NCBI RefSeq assembly: GCF_003470205.1
Contig: NZ_QWKP01000216.1
Span: 1 to 64,000 of the forward strand
Length of the DNA stretch: 64,000 bases
Direction of reading: 5' to 3'
Source of the DNA: Cellulomonas rhizosphaerae
GTDB lineage: Bacteria > Actinomycetota > Actinomycetes > Actinomycetales > Cellulomonadaceae
The first letter of the stretch is position 1; each line of letters begins with the position of its first letter. A program made the position numbers and the translations under genes. Shown one piece after another: positions 20,082 to 22,680 of the stretch. The notes beneath the pieces are model-generated. The model saw only the letters and a list, made by a program, of their open reading frames with translations, was not told the DNA's origin and ran no database searches.

Positions 20082-20906
20082 TCAGGACTGGATGAACTCC
20101 AGCAGGTCGGCGTTGATCGTCGCCGCCTCGGTCGTCGGCATGCCGTGCGGGAAGCCCGCGTACGTCTTGAGCGTGCCGTTGCGCAGCAGCTGCGCCGACA
20201 GCGGGCCGGAGTCCGCGTAGGGGACCACCTGGTCGTCGTCGCCGTGCATGACCAGCACCGGCAGCGTGATCTTCTTCAGGTCCTCGGTGAAGTCCGTCTG
20301 GGAGAACGCGACGACGCCGTCGTAGTGCGCCTTCGCGCCGCCCATCATCCCCTGGCGCCACCAGTTGGCGATGATCGCCTCGGACGGCTCGCGGCCCGGG
20401 CGGTTGAACCCGTAGAACGCGGTCGACGGCAGGTCGCGGTAGAAGTTCGAGCGCTTGGTCGCCACCTGCTCCTGGATGCCGTCGAAGACCTCCTTCGGCA
20501 GCCCGCGCGGGTTCGACTCGGTCTGGACCATGATCGGCGGCACCGCGGCGATGAGCACCGCCTTGGACGCGCGGCTCTCGCCGTGCCGCGCGAGGTAGCG
20601 CACGACCTCGCCGCCACCCGTGGAGTGGCCGATGTGGACCGCGTCGTGCAGGTCGAGGTGCTCGGTGAGGGCGGCCAGGTCGTCGGCGTAGTGGTCCATG
20701 TCGTGGCCGTCGCTGGTCTGCGTGGATCGGCCGTGGCCGCGGCGGTCGTGTGCGATCACGCGGAAGCCGTGCTGGACGAAGAACAGGAGCTGGGCGTCCC
20801 AGTCGTCGGAGGACAACGGCCAGCCGTGGCTGAAGACGAGGGGCTGGCCCGTGCCCCAGTCCTTGTAGAAGATCTCGGTGCCATCCGGGGTGGTGATCGT
20901 GGCCAT
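20082..20906 (-). CDS. Alpha/beta hydrolase, non-heme chloroperoxidase type
   Basis: 274 residues, the usual length. It starts [20 protein letters not shown], has the oxyanion segment [13 protein letters not shown] and [11 protein letters not shown], the nucleophile Ser in [11 protein letters not shown] (S95), the Asp in [11 protein letters not shown] and the His in AGFPHGMP (H254). That set is typical of cofactor-free (per)hydrolases annotated as chloroperoxidases. In nature they act as esterases or perhydrolases. GGAGGA precedes the ATG. It is a single gene with its own terminator. Confidence 0.88.
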
Positions 20907-21147
20907 GCCAGTCCTCCAGGTGAGCGGTGGGGCGATCGGGCTGTGGCGATCGCCTGATCAGGCCAAACGTACAAGTCGGGCACCGCTGGGCGCGCGGCCG
21001 GGAGGTAACGGGTGCGTGAACGCGTGCCGCGGGCGGTGGTGTGACCTCGCTCTCGTCGGCCGATTGCCGGAAGAAACTGACGCCGCCCCCGGTTGCCCCC
21101 GAAGGCCGCCGAACCCGGCCGACCCCGAGCACCCTGGAGCCTTCCTC

Positions 21148-21222
21148 GTGAGTCCGTGGAACCTGACCGAGCGCCGCACCGTCGACCTGCACCGGGTCGC
21201 CAGCGCGCTGTGTCGGCGGTAG
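21148..21222 (+). CDS. 24-residue Cys-ending leader peptide upstream of the symporter
   Basis: GTG 21148 to TAG 21222, with a GGAG eight bases upstream (21136-21139). The peptide ends VDLHRVASALCRR, with one Cys codon (21211-21213) near the stop. Short actinobacterial leader peptides of this RRxVDLxRVxSALCR style are known upstream of sulfur- and cysteine-related genes. The next gene, 42 bases downstream, is a DAACS-family symporter, whose family includes cystine carriers. The pattern suggests translation-coupled (cysteine-sensing) control of the transporter. The gene is too short for usual gene callers. The only other content of the stretch 20907-21264 is the promoter region and a hairpin. 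Confidence 0.75.
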   Translation: MSPWNLTERRTVDLHRVASALCRR

Positions 21223-21234
21223 TCGCACCCGCCG
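21214..21234 (+). promoter_or_regulatory. Hairpin overlapping the end of the leader peptide
   Basis: CGGCGG (the two final Arg codons, 21214-21219) can pair with CCGCCG (21229-21234) across nine bases. A ribosome pausing at the Cys codon 21211-21213 would block this stem, so the hairpin could be an attenuator element. It does not cover the AGAAGG ribosome-binding site of the symporter. Role inferred. Confidence 0.4.
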
Positions 21235-21264
21235 CCCTCGCGTCCCCCACCCAGAAGGCTTCCC

Positions 21265-22680
21265 GTGACTGACACCATCGCCGTGCCCAAGCGCCGGCTG
21301 CGTCTTCCCTCCTTCACCGTCCAGGTCCTGCTCGGCCTCGGGCTCGGTGTGCTCCTCGGCTGGATCGCCCTGCAGATGGGCGAGACCGCCGGGGGCGACC
21401 CGAACTGGCTGACCACGACGCTCGACACCATCGGCTCGTCGTTCATCACGCTGCTCAAGGCGATCGTCCCGCCGCTCGTGTTCCTCGCGATCGTCACGTC
21501 GATCGCGAACCTGCAGCAGGTGACGAACGCCGCGCGCCTCGCGTGGCAGACCCTGCTCTGGTTCGCCATCACCGCCGCGATCTCCGTCGCGGTCGGCATC
21601 GGCCTGGGCCTGCTGTTCCAGCCGGGCTCGCACTCGACGCTCAGCCCCGAGGCGGGCGTCGACCCCGGCGTCAGCGCGAGCTGGCTCGACTTCCTCGACG
21701 GCCTCATCCCGGGCAACTTCCTGGGCCTGGGCGCCTCGACCGACGCGTCCGCGATCGACGGCGGCGGCATCGACGCGAGCACCTCGATCTCGTTCAACGT
21801 GCTGCAGATCGTCGTCATCGCGATCGTCGTCGGCATCGCGGTCCTGCGCACGGGCAAGCCCGCGGACCAGTTCCTCGGCTTCACGCGCTCCGCGCTGGCC
21901 GTCGTGCAGAAGGTGCTGTGGTGGGTCATCCGCCTCGCGCCGCTGGGCACCCTGGGCCTGATCGGCAAGGCCGTGGCGACCTACGGGTGGGACCTGCTCG
22001 AGCCGCTCGGCACGTTCGCCGTGGCGATCTACGTGGGGCTCGCGATCGTGCTGTTCGTGGTCTACCCGGTGATCCTGAAGAGCAACGGGCTGCGCATCGC
22101 GAGCTTCTTCCGCGGCGCGTGGCCGGCGATCCAGCTCGCGTTCGTCTCGCGCTCGTCGGTCGGCACGCTGCCGCTGACCGAGCGCGTGGTCGAGCGCAAC
22201 CTCGGCGTGCCGCGCTCGTACGCCTCGTTCGCCGTGCCGCTCGCGGCGACGACCAAGATGGACGGCTGCGCCTCGATCTACCCGGCGATCTCGGCGATCT
22301 TCGTCGCGCAGATCTTCGGCATCCACCTGGGGCTCACGGACTACCTGCTCATCGCGTTCGTGTCCGTGGTCGGCTCCGCCGCGACCGCCGGGCTCACCGG
22401 CGCGGTCGTCATGCTGACCCTGACGCTCTCGACGCTCGGCCTGCCGCTGGCCGGCGTGGGCCTGCTGCTCGCGATCGACCCGATCCTCGACATGGGCCGC
22501 ACCGCGGTGAACGTCGCGGGGCAGGCGCTCGTGCCGACGGTGGTCGCCAAGCGCGAGCGGATCCTCGACCTGGAGCAGTACGAGGCTGCCTCCGCGGAGG
22601 ACCTGTTCGCGGACGACAAGCCGGTCGACGAGTCGCGCGAGGCCGGTGCGGACGTGCCGGAGCTGGTCGAGGCTCGCTGA
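21265..22680 (+). CDS. Dicarboxylate/amino acid:cation symporter (DAACS; possibly cystine type)
   Basis: 471 residues from GTG 21265 (AGAAGG upstream). It has the hairpin-loop Ser/Thr motif RSSVGTLPLTERVVERNLGV and the substrate-site helix KMDGCASIYPAISAIFVAQIFG of the DAACS family, in eight or so membrane helices. The conserved NMDG is changed to KMDG, which may alter cation or substrate binding. TcyP-like cystine carriers fall in this family, and the Cys-ending leader peptide upstream favours cystine or a similar sulfur amino acid. Glutamate or a dicarboxylate remains possible. A strong hairpin terminator follows, so it is a single transcription unit. Confidence 0.88.
   Translation: MTDTIAVPKRRLRLPSFTVQVLLGLGLGVLLGWIALQMGETAGGDPNWLTTTLDTIGSSFITLLKAIVPPLVFLAIVTSIANLQQVTNAARLAWQTLLWFAITAAISVAVGIGLGLLFQPGSHSTLSPEAGVDPGVSASWLDFLDGLIPGNFLGLGASTDASAIDGGGIDASTSISFNVLQIVVIAIVVGIAVLRTGKPADQFLGFTRSALAVVQKVLWWVIRLAPLGTLGLIGKAVATYGWDLLEPLGTFAVAIYVGLAIVLFVVYPVILKSNGLRIASFFRGAWPAIQLAFVSRSSVGTLPLTERVVERNLGVPRSYASFAVPLAATTKMDGCASIYPAISAIFVAQIFGIHLGLTDYLLIAFVSVVGSAATAGLTGAVVMLTLTLSTLGLPLAGVGLLLAIDPILDMGRTAVNVAGQALVPTVVAKRERILDLEQYEAASAEDLFADDKPVDESREAGADVPELVEAR

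Follow-up and report, generated by a model that had tools for sequence, protein, structure and literature searches.

A leader ORF in front of a DAACS symporter gene

We analysed a stretch of 64,000 nucleotides from Cellulomonas rhizosphaerae (the window), which lies within a 3.66-Mb draft genome on its contig C131. On its forward strand, a short ORF that opens with GTG at 21148 and closes with a TAG stop at 21220–21222 encodes the 24-codon peptide MSPWNLTERRTVDLHRVASALCRR, and 42 nt separate this stop from the GTG of a DAACS symporter gene at 21265. The locus contains the following features:

21136–21139, + strand: leader Shine-Dalgarno (SD) sequence GGAG, 8 nt 5' of the leader ORF (from sequence)
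21148–21222, + strand: leader peptide ORF of the NF042934 family (from sequence, family match, conservation and coding signature)
21211–21213, + strand: proposed sensing Cys codon UGU (TGT in 41/41 Cys-bearing symporter leaders)
21214–21236, + strand: small hairpin named in the initial annotation, in two registers (exact pairing in 2/45 loci only)
21223–21264, + strand: C-rich, G-poor spacer, a candidate Rho-loading stretch (24 C and 8 G in 42 nt)
21254–21259, + strand: SD-like GAAGGC of the symporter (from sequence)
21265–22680, + strand: DAACS (PF00375) symporter of the subfamily with the ATTKMDGCA-x-IYP motif (Pfam, motif and tree)

The sequence confirms the layout described in the initial annotation, a 24-codon ORF with its own GGAG placed 42 nt 5' of a DAACS symporter. 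That annotation had also placed one Cys codon beside the stop; the leader does contain a single Cys codon, but this is the third codon before the stop and two Arg codons intervene. GGAG or GGGAG occupies the equivalent place upstream of the leader at six further loci (L018–L023), and the GGAG 8 nt upstream of the window leader speaks against a leaderless start of the poly-Cys mycobacterial attenuator type. A sigma-70 scan yielded no promoter near the leader.

The leader is a conserved member of a curated family

In hmmscan searches the peptide matched the NCBIfam model NF042934 ('putative leader peptide', cis_reg_atten) at 28.5 bits against a curated cut-off of 27, and it is therefore a leader of a known kind. 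Scores against the Cys-rich leader models Ms5788A (NF042933, 27.7 bits) and Ms4527A (NF042936, 18.2 bits) were both below their cut-offs of 45. NF042934 describes short ORFs ahead of sulfur or amino-acid genes, and the window leader has this position relative to a symporter with a putative sulfur role. Because NCBI has a curated model that covers the leader, the earlier remark that ordinary gene finding misses it is only partly true. The draft genome holds 10 matches to NF042934, of which the window leader is the sole one over the cut-off. Of the 396 genomes sampled over the phylum, 36 contain a match at E<=0.01, 24 of them above the cut-off; in the window's own family, 35 of 121 genomes contain one at E<=0.001, and 31 of these exceed the cut-off. 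Behind 25 of the 30 best-scoring family leaders that we fetched lies a symporter of the present type, identified solely by its MDGCA motif.

We then surveyed the loci of the best 80 of 577 symporter relatives. A profile found a leader-like peptide upstream in 44 of 80, compared to 0/80 on the reverse strand and 0/80 in dinucleotide shuffles. The profile had been trained on many of the same leaders that it scored, so the weight is carried by these controls together with a plain pattern search, which recovered the motif at 30 of the 80 loci. By score the leader is absent from 36 of the 80, including two Cellulomonas loci (L024 and L027). Among these best 80 loci, Cys-bearing leaders occur in 12 named genera, which include Cellulomonas, Nocardioides, Blastococcus, Jiangella and Nocardiopsis; the nearest named relative among those found, Cellulomonas sp. 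PhB150, has a symporter 96% identical to that of the window. Substitution patterns in 17 Cellulomonas-like leaders gave pN 0.14 against pS 0.29 in the leader frame, whereas pN exceeded pS in both remaining frames (0.19 v 0.11 and 0.18 v 0.13); over all 45 leaders, the leader frame gave pN 0.32 and pS 0.50. The low in-frame pN relative to pS shows that selection acts on the peptide.

The leader is thus genuine and conserved, and it belongs to a known family of leader peptides that probably sense cysteine. Both the family match and the conservation with the symporter bear out the initial annotation, which had likened the peptide to actinobacterial leaders of the RRxVDLxRVxSALCR style beside sulfur-amino-acid genes, and the check it suggested, a search for the peptide upstream of DAACS genes in other actinobacteria, was positive at the 44 loci above. 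That the ORF is a conserved but non-functional small frame, or a chance one, without regulatory effect is extremely improbable given the contrast with both controls, the coding signature and the existence of a family model. In open-licence papers we found no earlier report of a leader of this family before this transporter type.

Selection on the peptide also bears on an alternative in which the nascent RRxVDLxRVxSALC chain would stall in the ribosomal tunnel in response to a small molecule, the Cys codon serving only as the arrest site. Such an arrest peptide would fit an amino-acid core that is preserved over 12 named genera despite variation in the Arg and Leu codons, as well as the low pN, and it would fit the persistence of Cys-less leaders at three loci. 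At these loci (L047, L050 and L057, all Geodermatophilaceae) the LTRRRxxD core is kept and the sensing place holds TGA twice and TGG once.

By eye, a degenerate leader is visible at the Occultella locus L034, outside the counts given here. L043 and L045 have no leader motif and carry other Cys-rich short ORFs upstream, one ending STCCC and one encoding ACMCMMRCPGMDR, likewise seen by eye and uncounted.

The proposed sensing codon is fixed as UGU

In all 41 Cys-bearing symporter leaders the proposed sensing codon is TGT; the remaining 3 of the 44 have no Cys there. TGT is otherwise the rarer Cys codon: long ORFs at these loci use it for 104 of 931 Cys codons (11%). Each of 44 symporter genes has a single Cys codon in its matched part, always TGC. 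Of the 110 other two-fold C/T codons in the 45 leaders, 102 end in C, so the fixed TGT does not reflect local T-richness.

The same codon recurs beyond the symporter loci. We fetched 58 leaders in the phylum sample, mostly best-scoring ones, and 54 of 57 have TGT at the sensing position and 3 have TGC (L191, with no Cys there, was left out of the codon count), compared to 8 TGT and 96 TGC among the 104 Cys codons of the genes behind them. All 30 of the best-scoring family leaders have TGT at this place. Additional Cys codons within single-Cys leaders are TGC 14 times and TGT twice, and those inside leaders with Cys runs, besides the sensing one, are TGC 57 times and TGT 30 times. The fixed UGU at the sensing position of the examined relatives is new here.

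What would favour the rarer codon? One tRNA-Cys gene, with anticodon GCA, was found in the draft genome among 43 tRNA matches (RF00005 and ARAGORN). Codon choice in attenuators is ascribed to selective charging of isoacceptors in an excerpt of PMC1183508, an explanation that is inapplicable to UGU with a single tRNA-Cys gene. RNA pairing was rejected as the cause because the bases flanking TGT vary, as judged by reading. We propose slow G-U wobble reading by the GCA tRNA as the cause. An invariant UGU is more easily explained by such codon reading than by an arrest peptide.

Probable cysteine leaders at other genes

The same genome carries a sulfite reductase-cysH-cysD gene group on contig C97, preceded by a Cys-rich ORF and a C-rich spacer. 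This ORF (G000:C97, L132:547-606) can be read as MTARPAMPSIVMCCCPRSN or as MCCCPRSN, with Cys codons TGC TGC TGT, and is not among the NF042934 matches of its own genome. A Cys-rich short ORF stands before sulfite reductase at 23 of 30 loci in the family, compared to 6 of 30 in a reverse-strand control. The last Cys codon of these leaders is TGT in 21 of 23 and TGT makes up 53 of all 85 Cys codons, against a background of 2 TGT in 170 Cys codons in the sulfite reductase genes (30 genes, each covered in part). These ORFs encode quite different peptides and show the same UGU bias, which argues against the sequence of the nascent chain as the sensor; taken with its points of support above, we consider an arrest peptide unlikely.

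Downstream genes in the phylum sample were clustered, and each cluster was classed through a single Pfam or NCBIfam representative, which makes the class sizes approximate. Representatives comprise DUF4395, ThiS, sulfite/nitrite reductase (NIR_SIR), rhodanese and the SsuA family, as well as sulfatase, FMN reductase and luciferase-like proteins; L146 and L149 were placed with ThiS by reading, L172 and L175 were left out of the scan, and the genes downstream of L163 and L170 had no NCBIfam match. A group of 9 of the 58 leaders (L154–L162), all from one genus (g9, Streptomyces-like by reading) and of the type VRLWRRVHMDLxRYAGCVCRPS, precedes a cluster with a cysteine dioxygenase-like representative, which is the wrong sign for a switch turned on by starvation. 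Family Cys leaders at L204, L211, L229 and L170 stand before an oxygenase that we named, by reading, as isopenicillin-N-synthase-like.

Folding predictions give little support for a structural switch

The initial annotation had proposed a hairpin at 21214–21234 that a ribosome stalled at the Cys codon would disrupt. CGGCGG at 21214–21219 can indeed pair with CCGCCG at 21229–21234, although the minimum-energy fold takes another register, 21215–21220 with 21231–21236. The regulatory role was not supported: the exact 6-bp pairing past the Cys codon occurs in the window and at L018 only, 2 of the 45 loci, and five other Cellulomonas loci fold differently from the window. In folding predictions with a ribosome footprint on the Cys codon, the accessibility of the symporter start rose by a mean of only 0.02 (Wilcoxon p 0.02), with a gain above 0.1 at 3 of 45 loci. 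We therefore rejected the hairpin as a regulatory switch.

A longer pairing joins the two translation starts, as the leader SD region (21136–21144) is complementary over 9 bp to the symporter SD region (21254–21262) and is paired with it in the minimum-energy fold. On this model the pairing would answer to initiation on the leader and not to a stall at Cys. A footprint placed 45 nt upstream, near the leader start, gave a predicted mean gain of 0.04, but the gain at the symporter site exceeded 0.1 at no more than 10 of the 45 loci, and the SD-SD pairing likewise found little support as a switch.

These folds bear on translational attenuation of the mycobacterial poly-Cys type, in which structure would hide the symporter SD until a ribosome stalled at Cys opened it. 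Such attenuation by poly-Cys leaders was reportedly described for the cysteine genes of M. smegmatis by Canestrari in 2020. The SD-SD pairing in the minimum-energy fold and the small, nominally significant gain from a block at the Cys codon are consistent with it. Against it stand the rarity of gains above 0.1, the stronger effect of the block 45 nt upstream, and spacers that reach an estimated 251 nt. We regard this mechanism as rather unlikely for the symporter.

A conserved C-rich spacer follows the leader

A simple scan of 20900–21350 found no intrinsic terminator (hairpin plus T run), on which ground we rejected a classical attenuator, and the two Rfam matches in 20900–21400 both fell below their gathering scores. 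What follows the leader is a stretch of unusual composition: when 42-nt segments on either strand of the window are counted, the spacer at 21223–21264 falls in the top 0.034%. C exceeds G after the leader stop in 45/45 leader loci; over up to 60 nt from the stop, mean C is 0.51 and mean G 0.26, compared to 0.35 v 0.34 upstream of the leader. An excess of C over G of at least 0.15 is found in 38 of the 45 spacers and in 13% of the stretches upstream of 207 other ORFs, whose start was taken as the first in-frame ATG or GTG. The bias is also present behind 56 of 58 phylum-sample leaders and all 30 of the best-scoring family leaders fetched; it occurs upstream of 22 of 36 leaderless symporters.

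Rho is encoded in the genome (PF07497 match, 85.5 bits). The conserved C-rich, G-poor spacer suggests a Rho-type switch, while C-rich tracts as such are no proof of Rho use. Spacers range from 15 to 251 nt, lengths that depend on script estimates of the symporter starts, and a stalled ribosome would cover only their beginning.

The symporter forms a clade of its own

The symporter matches PF00375 at 328.6 bits (gathering score 27.9); among solved proteins, homologues of aspartate and glutamate transporters are nearest to it in sequence. All 80 relatives have KMDGCA together with GQ in the last motif, compared to NMDGTA and GD in three solved chains. The description of the protein as a cystine-type carrier fails in the sense of membership in the TcyP clade: in a midpoint-rooted tree with long branches the symporter falls in its own clade outside TcyP (support 93/99), and we rejected its identification as TcyP. 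E. coli TcyP, annotated as a cystine/sulfocysteine symporter, has 30% identity to the window protein and carries GQNGC in place of KMDGC. Both are DAACS proteins that share GCA-x-YP, including an extra residue, and DMGRTAxNVxG. Since GCA-x-YP is common to both despite the separate clades, cystine is a plausible substrate on these sequence motifs. The genes next to symporter homologues on plasmids did not point clearly to a substrate.

The second DAACS protein of the genome, encoded on contig C102, groups with TcyP in the same tree (support 97/94, again with long branches and a midpoint root) and lacks a leader of the NF042934 family. About 125 nt before its gene we noticed a short ORF (G000:C102:6119-6172), VRPAGTHRSNRCRCTTA, which ends NRCRCTTA (Cys codons TGT and TGC) and is followed by a stretch of 28 C to 14 G. 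The ORF and the C-rich spacer recur in a 97%-identical relative, the one read of four; these four are the relatives of this DAACS found at E<=1e-80 in 60 other genomes. The ORF may be due to chance, as such ORFs were present in 6 of 30 control stretches.

Proposed mechanism

We infer that cysteine-sensing attenuation is the best reading of the leader. With fair confidence we propose that it senses cysteine and controls the symporter through a wait at UGU combined with Rho action at the C-rich spacer, as part of a cysteine regulon. When Cys-tRNA is plentiful, the ribosome would pass the single UGU, end at the stop three codons on and leave, exposing C-rich, G-poor RNA as a loading site for Rho, which could then end transcription ahead of the symporter gene or within its early part. 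Under cysteine shortage, a ribosome waiting at UGU would cover the start of the spacer, and the symporter would be made. Wobble reading of UGU by the only tRNA-Cys found could sharpen the response. The symporter might import cystine or another sulfur-bearing acid and, together with the sulfite reductase/cysH/cysD operon, would form a small cysteine regulon.

Several observations count against this proposal, among them the Cys-less leaders at L047, L050 and L057, the 36 of 80 leaderless symporters (22 of these 36 also with C above G), the spacer range of 15–251 nt, the cysteine dioxygenase-like genes behind L154–L162 and a carrier outside the TcyP clade.

A wider reading, which we hold tentatively and at a little short of even chances, is that actinobacterial cysteine attenuators have converged on UGU despite unrelated peptides, the rarity of this codon there and a single tRNA for both Cys codons, sensing cysteine through the speed of wobble decoding, and that the KMDGCA DAACS subfamily imports sulfur compounds under cysteine regulation. 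With one tRNA reading a fixed UGU, such leaders would offer a clean test of whether wobble-decoding speed, and not the choice of tRNA, sets the sensitivity of an attenuator. In addition, a UGU near the stop followed by a C-rich spacer provides a simple mark for finding other unannotated cysteine leaders, and the symporter subfamily is now tied to probable cysteine control across actinobacteria of at least 12 named genera.

Comparison with known leaders

The window leader shares the RRxVDLxRVxSALC core with the NF042934 family but precedes a DAACS symporter, as only one of the 58 phylum-sample leaders does (L147). With the mycobacterial Cys-rich leaders Ms5788A and Ms4527A it has in common a related peptide core and Cys near the stop; those leaders contain a run of Cys codons, whereas the window leader has one Cys, an SD-like GGAG in front and little folding support for SD release. 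The mycobacterial cysteine leader system is cited as translation attenuation in an excerpt of PMC13236596.

Rare codons were suggested early for the leu operon leader, according to an excerpt of PMC1183508. The leu attenuator and the leader described here both place a rare synonymous codon at a regulatory position; the same excerpt explains the leu codon by isoacceptor charging, whereas here one tRNA-Cys gene was found.

The E. coli tnaC leader is a Rho-dependent attenuator that senses free Trp by arrest. As in tnaC, the proposed switch is a ribosome at the leader end beside a Rho-loading region, but tnaC is arrested by free Trp, whereas here the ribosome would wait at UGU for Cys-tRNA. A further precedent is the 2005 account of cys leaders in Mycobacterium, Propionibacterium acnes and Bifidobacterium longum, which an excerpt of PMC1262725 likens to tnaC. 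In those leaders as in the present one, Cys is encoded shortly before the stop and pyrimidine-rich motifs follow the leader; neither has a conserved terminator, and Rho is proposed for both. For the mycobacterial cys leaders, the excerpt proposes a Rho-type switch and calls its motifs not conserved and the prediction weak; here, in contrast, C exceeds G in every one of the 45 spacers.
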